From the IMG/VR virus record IMGVR_UViG_3300013132_000134, positions 1 to 33,747 of that record: a DNA stretch of 33,747 nucleotides. The stretch is one strand, 5' to 3'. Positions 9,961-16,542 of the stretch are shown piece by piece. The position numbers were made by a program, and so were the translations under genes. The notes beneath the pieces are model-generated. The model saw only the letters and a list, made by a program, of their open reading frames with translations. It was not told the origin of the DNA and did no database searches. Origin of the DNA: a virus. Each line of letters begins with the position of its first letter. The stretch's first letter is position 1.

Positions 9961-10791
9961 ATGAAAATTCACTGCGCCTTCACCCAGATGGTGCCGGTCG
10001 GCGACCTGAAGCCGCACCCGAAGAACCCGAACCGGCACCCGCCCGAGCAGATCGAGATGCTGTCCCGGATCCTGGAGCACCAGGGGTGGCGCGCGCCTAT
10101 CATCGTTTCGAGCCTGTCGGGCTTCATCGTGGCGGGGCACGCCCGGCGGGAAGCCGCCTTGAAGCTCGGTTTCACGGAAGTGCCATGCGACGTCCAAGAC
10201 TTCGCCACGGAAGCCGATGAGTTGGCCCACCTGCTCGCCGACAACCACATCGCCGAACTCGCTGACGAGGACGGGCAGATGTTGAAGGACCTCCTGAAGC
10301 AGCTCGACGACGCGGGCCTCGACCGCACGCTCGCGGGGATCCTGTCGGACGAGGAGGAAGCGGCGGCCGCTCCTCCGCCCGAGTACCCGATGACCCCGAA
10401 GCTCGGCGAGACCCACGACTACGTCCTCGTCTTCGTGGACAACGAGACCGACTTCCTCTTCCTCCAGACGATCTGCGGCGTCCAGATCGAGAAATCCTAC
10501 AAGAAGACCGGCGTCGGCGTCGGACGCTGTGTTCCGTTCAAGAGGTTCCTCCATGCCCTCCGTCAAAATCGTCGTTCCCTCGATGTCGCGGGCGAAGACA
10601 ATCACAACCCACCGGATGCTCCGGGAGTGCCTGGTGTGCATCCCGGAGAGCCAGGTGGAGGAGTACGCGCAGACGCTCCCGCGGAGCAGCCTGCTCCCGC
10701 ACCCCGACAGCGTTCGCGGTCTCGCGCCAAAGCTGAACTGGATCTACCACGCGATGCGGGAGGAGCCGGCGTTCATGGTGATGGACGATGA
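9961..10791 (+). CDS. ParB-like N-terminal domain protein (phage DNA-modification type)
   Basis: This is a 276-residue frame. 'VPVGDLKPHPKNPNRHPPEQ' and 'GFIVAGHARREAALKLG' (box with VAGHARREA at 57-65) are the ParB/sulfiredoxin-fold motifs. This form is common in phages, alone or in front of DNA methylases, and may bind or hydrolyse a nucleotide. A second domain (about 135-200, 'HDYVLVFVDNETDFLFLQ' to VGVGRCVPFKRF) is the tail often seen in these phage ParB proteins. After about residue 200 the sequence becomes Pro/Gly/Arg-rich and overlaps the next gene by 239 bases, so the true end of the functional protein is probably near 10560. Confidence 0.75.
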   Translation: MKIHCAFTQMVPVGDLKPHPKNPNRHPPEQIEMLSRILEHQGWRAPIIVSSLSGFIVAGHARREAALKLGFTEVPCDVQDFATEADELAHLLADNHIAELADEDGQMLKDLLKQLDDAGLDRTLAGILSDEEEAAAAPPPEYPMTPKLGETHDYVLVFVDNETDFLFLQTICGVQIEKSYKKTGVGVGRCVPFKRFLHALRQNRRSLDVAGEDNHNPPDAPGVPGVHPGEPGGGVRADAPAEQPAPAPRQRSRSRAKAELDLPRDAGGAGVHGDGR

Positions 10792-11329
10792 CGTCCTCTA
10801 CATGGCCCGGTGCTTCACCAACCTCGGGGAGAAGGCCAAGGTGGAGGATCCGGACCTCGTCCACGAGATCATCGACGGCACCGCCCGGATGGCGGCCGAC
10901 TGCGGGTGCTTCCTCTTCGGGTTCGCCCCGAACCAGACCGGCATCCGGTTCTACACCGGGCTGAAGCCGTTCGCGCTGTCCGGGTTCGTCCTCGGGGCCA
11001 CCCAGGGATTCCTTCGCGGCCACAACCTCCGGAACGACGAGCGGCTTGTCGGGAAGATGGACTACGACCTCTCGGCGCTGAACGCCTACCGGCACCGGCG
11101 CTGCTTCCGGAACGACCGCTACTGCCTGATGTTCGGCGACACGTTCACTTCCCCAGGCGGGCAGGCGGGGCAACGCAACTCCGAGACCGAGGAACGCGAC
11201 CTCCAAATCCTGACCCGGAAGTGGGGACTCGTGGAGAACGGCGGCGTCCTCAAGGTGAACTCGACCCGTGGCCTTCGGAAGGCAGACTACGCGGGCATCA
11301 CGAAGGTGACCTTGCACGTCCCGTGGTGA
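10553..11329 (+). CDS. GT-A-type glycosyltransferase (TET-associated glycosyltransferase-like)
   Basis: This is a 258-residue protein. 'KIVVPSMSRAKTI' at the N-terminus, 'CIPESQVEEY' and VMDDDV (76-81, the D-x-D metal/nucleotide-sugar site) match the general pattern of the TET/JBP-associated glycosyltransferases that phages use to add sugars to modified DNA bases. The second half ('FALSGFVLGATQGFLRG', 'MDYDLSALNAY') completes the fold. No TET/JBP oxygenase is visible in the window, so the acceptor is open: a modified base, or a protein or metabolite. The start ATG 10553 lies inside the ParB frame, making an unusually long overlap. The stop at 11329 is followed by the first leader repeat. Confidence 0.7.
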   Translation: MPSVKIVVPSMSRAKTITTHRMLRECLVCIPESQVEEYAQTLPRSSLLPHPDSVRGLAPKLNWIYHAMREEPAFMVMDDDVLYMARCFTNLGEKAKVEDPDLVHEIIDGTARMAADCGCFLFGFAPNQTGIRFYTGLKPFALSGFVLGATQGFLRGHNLRNDERLVGKMDYDLSALNAYRHRRCFRNDRYCLMFGDTFTSPGGQAGQRNSETEERDLQILTRKWGLVENGGVLKVNSTRGLRKADYAGITKVTLHVPW

Positions 11330-11352
11330 TCCCCGCACGCCCGGTTCACAAA

Positions 11353-11412
11353 GTGAACAGGGGTGAAAGATTTGGTTTTGGGCCTGCCGAGGGTGGTTGC
11401 TCGCGTCGCGTC
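11353..11412 (+). promoter_or_regulatory. Leader element copy A (in front of radC-like gene)
   Basis: This is the first of three near-identical ~60-base elements. Shared core: GTGAA(A/G)GATTTGGTTTTG, a variable stretch, TGCCGAGGGTGG(T)TGCTCGCGT, then exactly six bases to the start codon (ATG 11413). An in-frame GTG opens at 11353, so the element could also be read as an N-terminal peptide ending GGCSR. No separate Shine-Dalgarno lies between the element and the ATG. Confidence 0.7.
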
Positions 11413-11925
11413 ATGAAGACGCTGAAGATTGCCCGCCGTCGGGTCCGCGAGATCATCGTTCGTCCGGACAGTTTGGTCCTGTGCGAAACCCCTGACTACT
11501 CCACCACCCGGTTCACCCTCGATCACCCCGAAGCCGTCGCCGAGTACTGGCGGAAGAACATCGGCGCGGATCCGCTGTTCCGCTCCGGACAGGAACACCT
11601 GCACGCCATCATGCTGTCGACCCGGCGGCACGCCATCGGGCACACGCTGGTGTCGATTGGGCTTCTGGATCAGGTCGTCGTGCACGCCCGTGAGGTCTTC
11701 CGGCCGGCGATCATGGCCAACGCCCACGCGGTCGTCCTCATCCACAACCACCCCAGCGGCGACCCCTCGCCCAGTGAAGCGGACATCCGCGTAACCCGTG
11801 ACCTGATCCGGGCCGGTCACCTACTGAAGCTCGAAGTCCTCGATCACCTGATCATCGGCCAACCCGGCGGATCCAGCGTGCGGGGGTGGGTCAGCCTTCG
11901 GGAACTCGGCTACTGCCAAGTCTGA
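11413..11925 (+). CDS. RadC-like JAMM/MPN-fold protein
   Basis: This is a 170-residue protein. The metal site is complete: Glu61 (QEHLHAIML), His111 and His113 in HNHPSGDPSPSEAD, and Asp124. This is the JAMM motif of RadC proteins. Phage and mobile-element RadC proteins often lack the N-terminal HhH domain, as here. Their role is uncertain (DNA repair or recombination, or isopeptidase-like cleavage). The gene is preceded by leader copy A. A start at GTG 11353 would add 20 residues made of the repeat. It is the first of a run of small accessory genes (RadC, DUF2958, RarA-C) typical of mobile elements. Confidence 0.85.
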   Translation: MKTLKIARRRVREIIVRPDSLVLCETPDYSTTRFTLDHPEAVAEYWRKNIGADPLFRSGQEHLHAIMLSTRRHAIGHTLVSIGLLDQVVVHAREVFRPAIMANAHAVVLIHNHPSGDPSPSEADIRVTRDLIRAGHLLKLEVLDHLIIGQPGGSSVRGWVSLRELGYCQV

Positions 11926-11934
11926 GGAAAGAAA

Positions 11935-11994
11935 ATGAACACCAGTGAAGGATTTGGTTTTGGGCATGCCGCAGGTGGCTGCTCGCGTCGTGAC
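11935..11994 (+). promoter_or_regulatory. Leader element copy B (in front of DUF2958 gene)
   Basis: This is the second copy, with the same core and the same six-base distance from GCTCGCGT to the start codon (ATG 11995). An in-frame ATG at 11935 is preceded by GAGGAAAGAAA, a good ribosome site, so here translation could begin upstream and include the repeat peptide (MNTSEGFGFG...GGCSRR). In place of CGAG it has CGCA and forms GCAG-GTGG-CTGC, a small perfect hairpin. Confidence 0.75.
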
Positions 11995-12399
11995 ATGAAA
12001 AAGACTCTCGCAGCCATCCTCGACGAGCGGAAACCCCGGCTCGGCTCCACCTACCAGAACGGCGTCCGTCCCGGGCCACGGAAGCTGGCCCAGTTCCGGG
12101 AATGCCTGCGGCTCGCCCAGGTTCCGGCGCTTGGTGCCCAGGAGGGAGCGGAGGACGCCATCGTCCACGTGAAGCTCTTCGACCCGGTCGGCTCCTGGAC
12201 GTGGTACATCACGGAATGGGACGGCGCGGACACGGCCTTCGGTCTGGTCTGTGGCCTCGTCCCGGAGTTCGGCTACATCGACATCTCGGAGCTCGCGGCC
12301 CTCCAAGGCGCGTATGGCATCGGCATCGAACTCGACATGCACTTCACGCCGGCCCCGCTGTCCTCCGTTCCCCGGAACCCACCTTTCAACGCCCGTTAA
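11995..12399 (+). CDS. DUF2958 family protein
   Basis: This is a 134-residue protein from ATG 11995 (154 residues if begun at ATG 11935). 'DAIVHVKLFDPVGSWTWYIT' followed by EWDG, 'TAFGLVCGLVPEFGYIDISE' and 'GIGIELDMHFTP' form the conserved core of DUF2958. This small family is common on plasmids, integrative elements and phages next to DNA-processing genes; its function is unknown. The normal family N-terminus corresponds to the shorter start, which argues that the repeat in front is a leader rather than part of the domain. Confidence 0.8.
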   Translation: MKKTLAAILDERKPRLGSTYQNGVRPGPRKLAQFRECLRLAQVPALGAQEGAEDAIVHVKLFDPVGSWTWYITEWDGADTAFGLVCGLVPEFGYIDISELAALQGAYGIGIELDMHFTPAPLSSVPRNPPFNAR

Positions 12400-12421
12400 C
12401 TACGCTACTAGCGCACATACC

Positions 12422-13009
12422 ATGAGCAAACCATTCCAGTCATTCGGCCAGTTGCAGACCACCGGCGGCTATCAGATGAGCGAAGTCGCCTCCGCCCTCC
12501 AGAAGTGCATCCGTCGCGGTGACGAGGACGATGCCCTCTTCTGGGCCACCGAACTCGACCTCTCCGGGTACGGCGAATACGCGTTCAAGCGGCTTCGGAT
12601 CATCGCGTCCGAGGACGTTGGCCTCGGCGAGCCGGACGCGGCCGTCGTTGTGCGGTCGCTGTACGCCAACTACGCGGAGATGAAGAAGAAGGACGACCCA
12701 CACAAGCCGGAGCGTCTCTTCCTCGTCCATGCCGTCATGGCGTTGTGCCGCGCCCGAAAGAGCCGGGCCGTCGACAACGCGTGCGTCCGCTTCTACCTCG
12801 GCAAGCGGGAGCAGCGGGCCATCCCGGACGTTGCTCTGGACAAGCACACGCTCCGCGGTCGGCAGCTCGGCCGCGGTTTCGATCACTTCTTCGCGGAGGG
12901 GGCGAAGGTGACGAACGAGAATCCGGACTGCCCGGATCCGTACAAGACCGTGGCTCGCGAGATCCTCGTGAATGCCCCGGCGAAGCCCACTCAGGAGAAC
13001 CTTCTTTGA
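12422..13009 (+). CDS. Stand-alone RarA/MgsA C-terminal-domain-like protein
   Basis: This is a 195-residue protein. 'EVASALQKCIRRGDEDDALF' and 'KRLRIIASEDVGLGEPDAAV' match the C-terminal (tetramerising) domain of the AAA+ replication-recombination ATPase RarA/MgsA ('ALqKSiRgsd..aAlyw...RRL.iiAsEDiGLa.P'). The ATPase half is absent: there is no Walker motif. It may act with the separate AAA+ ATPase at 13684, or modulate host RarA at stalled forks. The gene starts 22 bases after DUF2958. Confidence 0.7.
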   Translation: MSKPFQSFGQLQTTGGYQMSEVASALQKCIRRGDEDDALFWATELDLSGYGEYAFKRLRIIASEDVGLGEPDAAVVVRSLYANYAEMKKKDDPHKPERLFLVHAVMALCRARKSRAVDNACVRFYLGKREQRAIPDVALDKHTLRGRQLGRGFDHFFAEGAKVTNENPDCPDPYKTVAREILVNAPAKPTQENLL

Positions 13010-13018
13010 GGAACGCGC

Positions 13019-13336
13019 ATGAGCTCGACCCAGGATCAGAGGTTCCTCGTCGCCGGTGTGGAGTGCGTCGTCAGCATCCTGCGGGCCCCGAAGTCCGGGG
13101 AACGCTTCGCTGAGATCCGCCGTGGCCGGGAGTGCATCCAGGTGCCCGTCGACCTCCTCGGCCTCGCCGCCGGTAAGGACGCGTGGATGCGAGACATCCG
13201 GTTCCGCTGCTCCGTGTGTCGCGAACCCTTCAAGGCCTCCGAGATGGAAGGCCAGCTTTGCCCCCGCTGCCTCGAGGAGACCGAGGCGTACAACGAACTC
13301 CTCGACCGGGGTGGCCCACCCGATGAAGGAAAATGA
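13019..13336 (+). CDS. Small zinc-ribbon protein
   Basis: This is a 105-residue protein. The first ~55 residues form beta strands (FLVAGVECVVSILRAP...). 'CSVCREPFKASEMEGQLCPR' plus one further Cys forms a C-x2-C ... C-x2-C zinc ribbon (about 64-85). It probably binds nucleic acid or a partner protein; no named family is recognised. The stop overlaps the ATG of leader copy C (ATGA, 13333-13336). Confidence 0.65.
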   Translation: MSSTQDQRFLVAGVECVVSILRAPKSGERFAEIRRGRECIQVPVDLLGLAAGKDAWMRDIRFRCSVCREPFKASEMEGQLCPRCLEETEAYNELLDRGGPPDEGK

Positions 13337-13392
13337 ATCTCAGTGAAGGATTTGGTTTTGAGGGTGCCGAGGGTGGTTGCTCGCGTGTGGAC
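13333..13392 (+). promoter_or_regulatory. Leader element copy C (in front of small gene)
   Basis: This is the third copy: same core GTGAAGGATTTGGTTTTG, TGCCGAGGGTGGTTGCTCGCGT, and again six bases to a start codon, here GTG 13393. An in-frame ATG at 13333 follows AAGGAAA. CGAG (13369-13372) can pair with CTCG (13381-13384), as in copy A. Confidence 0.75.
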
Positions 13393-13608
13393 GTGAAAAC
13401 GAGAATCGATACCGACAAATACTTCGCCTCGCACCTCAAGGCTCCGCGCGGCAATGGCCGCTGGGCCTTCTGCCCGAGCAAGGCATGGGACACCGCGAAC
13501 TACCTCGATCATGTGTTCTGGTTCAACGGGACTTATGGCGAGGCCAAGCGAGCGGCAATCGCTCATTTCTCGGCCAAGGGCGTGAAGGACGTGGTGGCCT
13601 GCCCGTAA
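13393..13608 (+). CDS. Small hypothetical protein behind leader copy C
   Basis: This protein has 71 residues from GTG 13393 (91 if begun at ATG 13333 with the repeat peptide). 'APRGNGRWAFCPSKAWDTAN' and 'GEAKRAAIAHFSAKG' suggest a compact alpha/beta protein. Small proteins with a 'PrG.G.WAF' stretch are common in phages and mobile elements, without known function. It is followed by a terminator, so it ends the transcription unit that starts at or before the ParB gene. Confidence 0.6.
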   Translation: MKTRIDTDKYFASHLKAPRGNGRWAFCPSKAWDTANYLDHVFWFNGTYGEAKRAAIAHFSAKGVKDVVACP

Positions 13609-13617
13609 CCCAACGCT

Positions 13618-13654
13618 CCGGCCTCCCACTCGCTGGGAGGCCGGGGCCCTTTCT
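13618..13654 (+). terminator. Rho-independent-type terminator
   Basis: CCGGCCTCCCA (13618-13628) and TGGGAGGCCGG (13634-13644) form a perfect 11-bp stem with a five-base loop, 9 bases after the stop of the preceding gene. It is followed by a short T-containing run (CCCTTTCT). The U-tract is weak, but stem and position are convincing. It separates the leader-element genes from the AAA+ gene. Confidence 0.8.
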
Positions 13655-13683
13655 CCAACCAAAACCGTAGACCCATCGAACGT

Positions 13684-14616
13684 ATGCCGAACGAAAACGA
13701 CGAGATTGAACTGCCTCAGGGGGAACCTGAGCGCGAATCCAACCGCAACCCGCGCCGCGGCCAACGGCCGGCTGGCCCGAGCGAGGTCGGTGTCCTGGAG
13801 TTCCCGGACGCGCGCCATGACCTCGGGACCATGATCCTGTCGGACGCGATCCGCCGCGAAGTGGAGATCGCACTCCACCGGTTCCTCGTGGCGGACCAGT
13901 TGGAGGCGGTGTGGGGCCTGTCCCGCATCGAGCCGAACGCCGGTCGTTGTGTGTTGAACTTCTACGGCCCGCCGGGGACCGGGAAGACCATGACCGCAGG
14001 AGCGATCGCCCGGCGACTGAACCGACCCCTGTTCCGCGTCGACTACTCCGCCGTGGTGTCGAAATACCTCGGGGACACGGCCAAGCATATCGTCCGCGCC
14101 TTCCGCACGGCTGCCGAGGAAGGTGCGGTCCTGTTCTTCGATGAGGCGGACAGCCTCGTGAGCAGGCGGGTGGCCTCGGGGGAATCCTGCTCGACGAGCA
14201 TCAACCAGAACCGGAACACGCTCATGGCCGAGCTGGATCGATTCAATGGTGTGGCCATCCTGACAACGAACCTCTTCCAGAACTACGACCCCGCCATGCT
14301 CCGGCGGATCTCTCGTCACGTGGAGTTCCGGCTGCCGGACTGGCAGCAGCGGGAAGCGCTGCTCCGGCTCCACCTGCCGAACGGGGAGCGCGTTGCTGCC
14401 GACCTGCGCACGCTGGCCATGGCGTCGCGGGGCCTGTCAGGGGGCGACATCCGGAACGTGTGCCTAAACGCGATCTATGCCGCGAGCATGGACCCGGATC
14501 CGGCCCAGTGGATTGTCCGGGACGCGCACCTTCGCGCGGAGATCGTCGCCATCCAGGATTCCAAGCGGGCGCATGCGCCTGTCGGCACTCCGGAACTCAC
14601 TCTGGAGGACAACTGA
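13684..14616 (+). CDS. AAA+ ATPase (classic AAA clade)
   Basis: This is a 310-residue protein. Walker A is GPPGTGKT (95-102) and Walker B VLFFDEAD (149-156). Sensor 1 is in 'VAILTTNLFQ', arginine fingers in 'MLRRISRHVEF', and a C-terminal lid has 'GLSGGDIRNVCLNAI' (sensor 2), as in FtsH/katanin/RarA-like AAA proteins. The N-terminal ~40 residues are disordered and charged (MPNENDEIELPQGEPERESN). Such single-ring AAA proteins remodel protein or DNA complexes. Its neighbours (RadC, RarA-C, amidoligase, amidotransferase) suggest a partner in the modification island, but the target is unknown. Confidence 0.85.
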   Translation: MPNENDEIELPQGEPERESNRNPRRGQRPAGPSEVGVLEFPDARHDLGTMILSDAIRREVEIALHRFLVADQLEAVWGLSRIEPNAGRCVLNFYGPPGTGKTMTAGAIARRLNRPLFRVDYSAVVSKYLGDTAKHIVRAFRTAAEEGAVLFFDEADSLVSRRVASGESCSTSINQNRNTLMAELDRFNGVAILTTNLFQNYDPAMLRRISRHVEFRLPDWQQREALLRLHLPNGERVAADLRTLAMASRGLSGGDIRNVCLNAIYAASMDPDPAQWIVRDAHLRAEIVAIQDSKRAHAPVGTPELTLEDN

Positions 14617-14654
14617 ATGGCCTTCCTGCCGAACGGGAATCGAGCGGGAAAAAT

Positions 14655-14718
14655 ATGAGTTCAGGGGCGGATTTTGATTTGTCTGGGTGTGCGCTGATAG
14701 CGCACGCGACGAGGTGTA
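14655..14718 (+). promoter_or_regulatory. Leader in front of the amidoligase; possible diverged fourth copy of the repeated element
   Basis: An ATG at 14655 is followed, as in the three repeats, by GGATTT(T)G(A)TTTG at nearly the same distance. Then comes a perfect 7-bp hairpin GTGCGCT-GAT-AGCGCAC (14689-14705) and GAGGTG just before GTG 14719. The short frame from 14655 is out of frame with the amidoligase, unlike in the repeats. Similarity outside the AT-rich core is weak, so homology is uncertain, but a structured leader is likely. Confidence 0.4.
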
Positions 14719-15717
14719 GTGAGCAACAGCAACAACGCCTCCAAGACCATGAAGAACGCAAAAATGCCCTCTGACTTCCTCGCCGAAAACATCGAGTTCG
14801 GGGTCGAACTCGAAACGATGGTTCCGGTGTCCGCTGGCATCCGTCGCGGGGGTTATCACTCCGGCCTCGCCGTCATGACCGGCACAGCCAACGGCCGGAT
14901 CGTGGAAGCCCCGCACTTCCGCGGCGCAACGTGGCGCGCCGACTCCGATGCCTCCATCCGGGCGGAGGAAGGTTACATGGCCGTCGAGTTCGTATCGCCC
15001 GTCCTCAAGGGGATCGAAGGACTGGAAGCCCTGTTGAGCTTCGTCCGGTTCCTCCACGCCATCGGAGCGAAGGTCAACGACTCCTGCGGCTGCCACATCA
15101 CCGTCGGGATCCGGAGCCTGATGCCGGGTGAGCCGGTGGACACGACGAAGATCGCGAAGTTCGTGCGCCGCCTCGCACGGTTCGCGAACAACCACCGCTG
15201 GGCCATCTACGCCCAGACCGGAACCGGCCGCCACCTGAACAACTACTCCCACCCGCTCACGGCGGAATCGAAGGCCACGTTCGAGCGGATGCTGGAGACC
15301 AGCGACGGACGCCAGCTGGTCGATCTCTGCAACATGACGGGCCGGGGCATGGTGAACTTCCGGAAGGCCTTCGCTCCAAACAACCGGGAAGCCGTCGAGT
15401 TCCGCGCCTTCGCCGGAACCCTCAGCGAGTCGAAGCTGATGCACCACCTCGCCACCGTGTTCGGGCTTTGCCGGAAGGTGGTCGCCTCCAAGGAGGTTCC
15501 TCCCTTCTTCCGCTCCGAAAAGATCGTCCGTCTCGCGAACTCGCGCGAGGCGCTCGAGCGGCTCTGGAAGGTGATGGGCTGGAGCCGTCGCACCCCGACC
15601 CACAAGTGCGCGCTCGGACTCTTCGGGCGGCTTCACGCGGAGTTTCGCCAGTACCGCACCTCGGCCCTCGCCATGGCGGAGAAGTTCGAGACCCGCTTCC
15701 CCAACGCCAACCTCTGA
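14719..15717 (+). CDS. Amidoligase (Amidoligase_2, COOH-NH2 ligase family)
   Basis: This is a 332-residue protein. FGVELETM (27-34) is the N-terminal 'fGvEiE' motif of the glutamine-synthetase-like amidoligases; 'AVEFVSPVL' (88-96), GCHITVG (124-130) and 'AVEFRAFAGT' (about 228) are further active-site-type motifs. These enzymes use ATP to join an amine to a carboxylate, and in the literature are linked by gene neighbourhood to class II glutamine amidotransferases, exactly the next gene. The substrate is unknown: amino acid or peptide, cell wall or a modified base. GTG 14719 has GAGGTG close by; ATG 14749 is an alternative start that keeps the whole domain. Confidence 0.8.
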   Translation: MSNSNNASKTMKNAKMPSDFLAENIEFGVELETMVPVSAGIRRGGYHSGLAVMTGTANGRIVEAPHFRGATWRADSDASIRAEEGYMAVEFVSPVLKGIEGLEALLSFVRFLHAIGAKVNDSCGCHITVGIRSLMPGEPVDTTKIAKFVRRLARFANNHRWAIYAQTGTGRHLNNYSHPLTAESKATFERMLETSDGRQLVDLCNMTGRGMVNFRKAFAPNNREAVEFRAFAGTLSESKLMHHLATVFGLCRKVVASKEVPPFFRSEKIVRLANSREALERLWKVMGWSRRTPTHKCALGLFGRLHAEFRQYRTSALAMAEKFETRFPNANL

Positions 15718-15731
15718 CACCCAACCCGCCA

Positions 15732-15756
15732 GGGGGCGGGCAACCGCCCCCCTTTT
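15732..15756 (+). terminator. Stem-loop with T run between amidoligase and amidotransferase
   Basis: GGGGGCGG (15732-15739), loop GCAA, CCGCCCCC (15744-15751), then CTTTTCC: a perfect 8-bp stem with a GNRA-type loop and a short T run. It lies 15 bases after the amidoligase stop and 12 before the next start, so it would reduce rather than fully stop transcription into the amidotransferase. Confidence 0.65.
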
Positions 15757-15768
15757 CCCCCTCTTCCC

Positions 15769-16542
15769 ATGTGCTGCTTGATTGTCTGCCCATCCTCGAA
15801 TCGCCCGTCGCTGCGGGCGCTCCGCCAGATCGCCGTCGTCAACCCTCACGGCCTCGGCCTCGCCTGGTCCGCGAATGGTGCCGTCCATTGGATGAAGTCT
15901 GATGACGTCAATGAGATCCACCGGCTCGCCAGACGGCTTCCGGACAGCGTCGTCATTCACGCGCGATGGGCCTCGGTAGGAGGTGTCCATCCGCAGTTGC
16001 GCCATCCGTTCCCCGTCACGGAGGAATGCTCGCTCTCCTCGCAGGGCAGCGCACCGGCAGTCCTGTTCCAGAACGGAACGTGGTTGTCGTGGGAGCGGGA
16101 GGTCGAGGCGGCGGCCGCCCAGGGTTTCACCGTTCCGTCCGGCATCCTGTCGGACGCCCGGGCGGCCGCCTGGCTGGTTCACGTCCGCGGCTCCCGCGAG
16201 TGGCTCGGGAAGAACGGATCCCGGTGGGTCCACTGGGTGGCCGGAGCAGATCCGGAACTGTTCGGCCAGTTCCACGAGTTCCGGGGGTGCCTCTACTCGA
16301 ACATGTACTGGCGCAAGGGAGGCTCGGGAACGGCCCGGAAGCCGCGCCCGGGGCCTGCCCCCCGTCCGACTCCTGGATGTGGCTCCCAGGCGAAGCCAGT
16401 GCGGGTTGCGGACGCCAGGATCCGGGAGCCTCAACCGGCGAGGCGCGAATTGCCGGACCGGATGCCGACGATGCCCTGGTTCCAACTCTCCGACGAGTTC
16501 CAGGCGACCGCCGCTCGGGTCCGTGGTCGGCAGGGGGCGTAA
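15769..16542 (+). CDS. Class II (Ntn) glutamine amidotransferase
   Basis: This is a 257-residue protein. Met is followed by Cys2, the nucleophile of Ntn-type amidotransferases after Met removal. 'VNPHGLGLAW' and 'VVIHARWASVGGVHP' match the NxxGxG and hARwaS.g motifs of the glutamine-binding site. The enzyme releases ammonia from glutamine (or acts as a related amidohydrolase) and is a natural ammonia donor for the upstream amidoligase. The last ~70 residues are Arg/Pro-rich and low in complexity, probably disordered. Confidence 0.8.
   Translation: MCCLIVCPSSNRPSLRALRQIAVVNPHGLGLAWSANGAVHWMKSDDVNEIHRLARRLPDSVVIHARWASVGGVHPQLRHPFPVTEECSLSSQGSAPAVLFQNGTWLSWEREVEAAAAQGFTVPSGILSDARAAAWLVHVRGSREWLGKNGSRWVHWVAGADPELFGQFHEFRGCLYSNMYWRKGGSGTARKPRPGPAPRPTPGCGSQAKPVRVADARIREPQPARRELPDRMPTMPWFQLSDEFQATAARVRGRQGA

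Follow-up and report, generated by a model that had tools for sequence, protein, structure and literature searches.

A putative start-site control element gained and lost with accessory genes in a small group of probable Verrucomicrobiota siphophages

Actinobacterial phages are known to carry start-associated repeats, for which a function has yet to be proven more than 10 years after their description. The nearest described counterparts of the element reported here are the SAS and ESAS of Cluster K mycobacteriophages and the SAS-like motif of Microbacterium Cluster EF phages; SAS copies are found 3 to 9 nt from the starts of non-structural genes of different families, with a consensus for each lineage (PMC3203893, PMC11373665, PMC7302621). 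The SAS consensus, GGGATAGGAGCCC, contains an AGGAG core able to pair with the 3' end of 16S rRNA, and SAS is not common in the host genome. ESAS consist of 17-bp imperfect inverted repeats with a putative SigA-like promoter (PMC11373665).

The window, by which we mean the whole stretch of DNA analyzed, is IMG/VR record IMGVR_UViG_3300013132_000134 at its full length of 33,747 bases, a siphophage segment carrying replication genes together with genes for terminase, portal, protease, major head protein, tail chaperone, and tape measure. Its terminase is 97 to 98% identical to contigs of two Verrucomicrobiota MAGs and about 56% identical to those of many phages and prophages in other Verrucomicrobiota MAGs, here called sister phages; these matches support a host in this phylum. 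One relative, IMGVR_UViG_3300032315_002372 (46,957 bp), is largely collinear with the window, with DNA 71 to 88% identical. It also carries an operator-like palindrome, GGTGATAATCACC, in three copies at reverse-complement positions 1402, 1632, and 1789.

Three copies of an element of about 60 nt, starting at 11353, 11935, and 13333, stand in front of three unrelated genes, as an earlier note on this DNA had claimed; the pattern GTGAANGATTTGGTTTTGNNNNTGCCGNNGGTGGNTGCTCGCGT has exactly three matches in the window and none in 100 dinucleotide-preserving shuffles with up to 3 mismatches allowed. The features concerned are as follows.

11353..11412, + strand: element copy 1, before the RadC-like gene; starts with GTG, with no Shine-Dalgarno-like sequence upstream
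11363..11416, + strand: +1-frame mini-ORF of copy 1 (VKDLVLGLPRVVARVAS, then stop), GTG to TGA; stop overlaps the RadC ATG
11398..11406, + strand: 3' block TGCTCGCGT of copy 1, followed by the free 6-nt spacer and the start codon
11413..11925, + strand: RadC/JAB-domain gene, probable start ATG 11413 (PF04002, E=1e-34; phrog_10276, E=9e-34)
11935..11994, + strand: element copy 2, before the DUF2958 gene; GAGGAAAGAAA precedes its ATG
11945..11998, + strand: +1-frame mini-ORF of copy 2 (VKDLVLGMPQVAARVVT, then stop); stop overlaps the DUF2958 ATG
11980..11988, + strand: 3' block TGCTCGCGT of copy 2
11995..12399, + strand: DUF2958 gene, probable start ATG 11995 (PF11171, E=2.4e-13)
13333..13392, + strand: element copy 3, ahead of the small orphan gene; the ATG that opens it shares bases with the stop codon of the previous gene (ATGA)
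13343..13396, + strand: +1-frame mini-ORF of copy 3 (VKDLVLRVPRVVARVWT, then stop); stop overlaps the GTG of the next gene
13378..13386, + strand: 3' block TGCTCGCGT of copy 3
13393..13608, + strand: small orphan gene, 71 aa from GTG 13393; no counterpart follows the equivalent copy in the relative

The last conserved base of TGCTCGCGT lies 6 bases before ATG 11413, ATG 11995, and GTG 13393, and in all three copies a GTG or ATG stands 60 nt before the downstream start, in the same frame and with that frame open; both the spacing and the open frame had been noticed earlier and are borne out, as is the identity of the three genes. On the 5' side, the copies remain similar for about 10 nt more (AAA-RTGAA; in most copies GAGGAAA-like), and a second open frame (+1) opens with a GTG at position 11 and closes with a TGA that overlaps the downstream start codon, where the upstream ATG is position 1 of the element.

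The cargo genes are of accessory type. DUF2958 may be linked with anti-restriction loci; no such link was found in the literature searched, and DUF2958 was not found in the MAGs searched. In the two closest MAGs, the RadC homologues are of the ordinary chromosomal type, and those read carry no element. The small orphan gene (13393..13608) had no match in PHROG, Pfam, or PADLOC. Polyvalent conflict proteins of phages and mobile elements can contain RadC domains (PMC5512222). Around the cluster, a ParB-like/methyltransferase-like protein adjoins a TET-associated glycosyltransferase (PF20691) at 9961 to 11329, a possible DNA hypermodification pair, and directly downstream (13684 to 16542) come, one after another, an AAA ATPase, an amidoligase (PF12224), and, from a weak match (E 0.18), a possible MbnB/TglH-like protein. 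At 12400 to 12421, a short gap before an MgsA_C-like gene, AACTACGCTACTAGCGCACA (dyad CGCTAcTAGCG) is identical in both phages and is a candidate operator or promoter.

The relative has four copies of the element, R1 to R4, which makes seven known copies over the two phages, all on the gene strand and six of them followed by a gene, with 3 to 4 copies per phage within about 2 to 2.5 kb. R1 precedes RadC and R3 precedes DUF2958, whereas R2 stands before an extra 96-residue gene that the window lacks, and R4 is an orphan copy at the site of the window's third cassette, with no cargo gene behind it. In R4, frame 0 stops at once (..VA, then stop), CTG replaces the downstream ATG, and the spacer lacks one base (5 nt); this copy retains the Shine-Dalgarno-like sequence, the ATG, and positions 1 to 33. 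All six gene-bearing copies keep the RTG start and the N6 spacer; the orphan does not. Thus, the element is gained and lost as a unit with the gene behind it, in line with the cassette movement that the earlier note had envisaged: one such unit is present in the relative and not in the window, and R4 lost its gene or never had one. Local duplication alone, offered there in case no other occurrence should be found, is ruled out by the four copies in the second phage. No further copies were found on either strand of the window phage or the relative; a weak likeness in the relative, GATTTGG..TGCTCGCG at reverse-complement position 38919, was judged to be chance. The element was not found in other viral contigs, where the core pattern gave 22 chance matches without the rest of the element, and had no match in the genomes of 84,980 prokaryote species; phage and plasmid records yielded chance matches only. 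Nor was it found in 16 Verrucomicrobiota MAGs. The two MAGs with the 97 to 98% identical terminase had no copy, but their phage contigs measure 6 to 8 kb and end short of the region.

Such turnover could mean that the element has no regulatory role and is a recombination linker, a block of homology for the exchange of single-gene cassettes among phages. R2 and R3, which flank the extra gene of the relative, differ at 3 of 60 positions, and at the sites where they differ, window copy 2 matches R2 at -4 and 9, R3 at 16 and 45, and neither at -3; this mosaic, R2-like at its 5' sites and R3-like at its 3' sites, fits loss of the extra gene by an R2 x R3 crossover, with four sites deciding. Recombination between repeats that deletes genes has been described for Cluster O phages (PMC4351075). 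However, the copies within one phage have diverged and hence are not kept alike by frequent exchange alone, and a linker needs no fixed spacing to a start codon. The latter point is brought out by the way in which conservation is distributed. Between window and relative, the RadC copies are 17% identical at -40 to -11, 90% at -10 to -1, 100% at 1 to 27, 83% at 28 to 45, 100% at 46 to 54, which is TGCTCGCGT, and 33% at 55 to 60 (copy 1 and R1 being 88% identical as a whole), and the first 120 nt of the RadC gene are 63% identical in an ungapped comparison. For the DUF2958 copies, the figures are 40, 80, and 93% at -40 to -11, -10 to -1, and 1 to 27, followed by 83, 100, 33, and 82% at 28 to 45, 46 to 54, and 55 to 60 and in the first 120 nt of the gene. 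Conservation is therefore arranged in sharp-edged blocks, from about -10 to 27 and at 46 to 54, with TGCTCGCGT invariant in 7/7 copies; the spacer is unconserved in sequence, yet exactly 6 nt long in 6/6 gene-bearing copies. A spacer that is free in sequence and fixed in length is as expected of a signal that is recognized jointly with the start codon downstream, and we consider a mere linker improbable.

The open frame raised a further possibility, namely, that the 20 in-frame residues (M/V-N-x-S/G-E-G/R-F-G-F-x-x-A-x-G-G-C-S-R) form an N-terminal protein signal, for example, one for capsid targeting or injection. The frame is open and of fixed length in all gene-bearing copies, and a Shine-Dalgarno-like sequence (GAGGAA or AAGGA) precedes the upstream ATG in 5/7 copies, from which translation would read in frame into the gene; RadC-domain proteins are also among the phage polyvalent proteins, a class for which packaging and injection are predicted in many cases (PMC5512222). 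The substitutions run the other way. In frame 0 of the orthologous copies (copy 1 with R1 and copy 2 with R3), the changed codons comprise 0 synonymous and 9 non-synonymous cases, compared with 84 synonymous and 93 non-synonymous in the RadC and DUF2958 gene bodies (Fisher P=0.004), even as more codons are identical in the element (31/40) than in the gene bodies (124/301; P=2e-5); together, these two results indicate that the element is not a conserved N-terminal peptide. Replacements are radical (mean BLOSUM, -1.49), and variable columns over positions 10 to 54 number 5, 5, and 2 at frame-0 codon positions 1, 2, and 3, the opposite of what a conserved peptide would give and the answer to a codon-position check suggested with the original observation. 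TTT-GGT-TTT is invariant in all 7 copies although the phage avoids TTT (2.4 versus 33.7 TTC per 1000 codons), and GC3 in frame 0 is about 0.44 (0.38 to 0.50), atypical against 0.82 phage-wide. No PHROG or Pfam library match covers the tag, and the RadC copy has no Shine-Dalgarno sequence at its upstream GTG. The tag was rejected on substitution pattern and codon use, and it is the least probable of the readings considered here. We conclude that selection acts at the nucleic-acid level, as the earlier note had argued from the invariant T-ending codons in a GC-rich genome.

The main rival retained is a leader in the +1 frame, a 17-codon peptide (VKDLVL-x-x-P-x-V-x-ARV.., then stop) whose translation would be coupled to, or would control, that of the gene whose start its TGA overlaps. 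The GTG at position 11, the open frame, and the overlap of TGA with ATG or GTG are present in 6/6 gene-bearing copies, and the frame has a higher GC3 (0.62 to 0.75) and milder replacements (mean BLOSUM, +0.03) than frame 0. Nevertheless, its synonymous fraction of 0.27 is close to the 0.24 of a random-placement null, and under the same null the BLOSUM excess, as a sign of protein-level constraint, is not significant (P=0.11). Moreover, no Shine-Dalgarno sequence serves its GTG, and any ATG-A start makes a TGA in the +1 frame. We hold the leader to be unlikely.

Searches for known signals within the element were largely negative. RNAalifold gave 0 compensatory pairs over the 7 copies, so that the covariation check suggested in the earlier note gave nothing, and no Rfam family matched at the element; the earlier interpretation was thus supported in part, for nucleic-acid selection and cassette behavior. 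A duplex of the element with the whole 16S rRNA was no better than with shuffled sequences, and pairing with the 16S 3' tail (P 0.04 to 0.07) involved bases that are not conserved across copies; 16S complementarity was rejected as unconvincing and unconserved. The element could instead be a transcriptional site, an ESAS-like phage promoter or operator giving mRNAs that are leaderless or have very short leaders. Its size and position resemble those of ESAS plus SAS (about 50 + 13 bp), ESAS hold putative SigA-like promoters (PMC11373665), and copy 1 overlaps a short dyad, GTTCACaaaGTGAAC. No sigma-70-like promoter was found in 11200 to 13700, however, no dyad or inverted repeat is common to all copies, and the genes form a compact same-strand run in which starts and stops overlap or nearly touch; we regard a transcriptional site as quite unlikely, and control at the level of translation is more likely than control of transcription.

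We suggest that the element is a lineage-specific, SAS-like start-site control signal of a small group of Verrucomicrobiota siphophages, which moves with accessory genes, and we give this reading a probability of roughly one half. Control of the gene start is the most likely function, and a small control signal is proposed because the letters are kept as DNA or RNA and because the element comes and goes with the genes behind it. The true gene starts would then be the downstream ATG or GTG codons, and the 3' block would act where a ribosome-binding site normally lies, given that most genes of this phage have no Shine-Dalgarno sequence: among 28 window gene starts checked, 10 have such a sequence and 18, at the listed start, do not, so that a downstream start without one is not unusual here. 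The 5' block may be what a phage or host factor (a protein or an RNA) recognizes in order to switch the accessory genes together; such joint switching is modelled on the proposal for SAS and ESAS, itself unproven. Homologous recombination between similar copies would also exchange units of element and gene. Counting against this start-site signal, translation may begin at the upstream ATG in the five copies that have a Shine-Dalgarno-like sequence, and the exact 60 nt without indel in gene-bearing copies fits an in-frame extension as well. The evidence base for the element is seven copies in two phages, read from their sequence. If the downstream start is the one in use, gene annotation would make each of these proteins 20 residues too long.

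A different short element, (TGAAGCGT)AACGTTCC, usually within TGAAGCGTAACGTTCC(C/G), surfaced in the sister phages while diverged copies were being sought in related loci. Over about two dozen loci, some of them closely related to one another and not independent, 62 copies lie on the gene strand and 2 on the opposite strand (sign test, 2e-16). The start of a long ORF lies within 40 nt of 26 of the 62 (42%, versus 26% for random positions), at a distance of 8 to 11 nt in 18 of these 26, and in loci L122 and L126, 5/5 copies are found 8 to 27 nt before starts (terL, portal, and neighbors). The copies in L122 are placed as follows.

L122, positions 4972, 9968, 12540, 14386, and 15228: copies of TGAAGCGTAACGTTCC; likewise in L126, L125, L054, L106, and L128

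In L038, a variant, CGAACGTCGCC, with motif CCGAACGTCGCC, precedes 4/4 starts (768, 7786, 9638, and 10479) by 7 to 16 nt. The distance from the TTG of the element to the terL start is 26 or 27 nt, and since its frame relative to the gene varies, the sister element is not a peptide. This bears on the leader in the +1 frame also: before the portal gene, the AACGTTCC element likewise forms a mini-ORF with a GTGA overlap, but neither start codon nor frame of the mini-ORF is conserved among the sister phages. A likeness of the sister element to the 16S sequence GTGAATACGTTCCC was judged to be chance, and no description of the TGAAGCGTAACGTTCC repeat was found in the literature. In L140 (604 to 1042; same contig as L179) and L177 (1505 to 2144), 3 to 4 copies of AACGTTCC occur within 0.4 to 0.7 kb, apparently before very small genes, in compact, cassette-like arrays that recall the window.

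Like the element of the window, the AACGTTCC element is lineage specific, co-oriented, and near start codons; unlike it, it is shorter, has another sequence, and stands at structural genes (terL, portal, and neighbors), and the window phages do not have sister elements at the same genes. No homology between the two is claimed; what the sister element shows is that lineage-specific repeats tied to gene starts occur more than once in this phage clade. A bolder proposal, doubtful but worth stating, is that Verrucomicrobiota siphophages use lineage-specific, non-Shine-Dalgarno start signals (TGCTCGCGT-N6 plus the 5' block in one group; TGAAGCGTAACGTTCC about 9 nt before starts in the other), read by a phage-encoded factor, such that genes landing behind a signal would join a virus-only translation programme.

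In summary, independent cases in another bacterial phylum suggest that phages repeatedly use start-linked repeats to mark genes for control as a group, and a lineage-specific sequence that turns over with accessory genes supplies natural pairs of orthologue and orphan copies for testing; no such elements were found in the literature for Verrucomicrobiota phages. In common with coupled leader peptides and upstream ORFs, the window element has a short ORF that ends overlapping the gene start, but it has no significant peptide conservation, leader Shine-Dalgarno sequence, or conserved RNA structure. The 17-bp dyad repeats of Cluster O mycobacteriophages are similarly phage-group specific, with genes apparently gained or deleted through the repeat; they are, however, palindromic, number more than 30, and have no tie to starts, whereas the window element is asymmetric and start linked (PMC4351075). 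As with SAS, the element lies 6 nt before the start in 6/6 gene-bearing copies, if the downstream start is used, is asymmetric and in one orientation before unrelated non-structural genes (RadC, DUF2958, and orphans), is restricted, among the sequences searched, to a single phage group, and has a putative function. Its sequence (TGCTCGCGT plus the 5' block) is unrelated to GGGATAGGAGCCC and has no AGGAG core or conserved 16S pairing; in contrast to ESAS, it is a single 60-nt unit without inverted repeats and with no sigma-70 site in the region; and it differs from both in having only 3 to 4 copies in about 2 to 2.5 kb and in turning over with its gene as a unit. By this comparison, the element stands outside the SAS family and is SAS-like in its anatomy.
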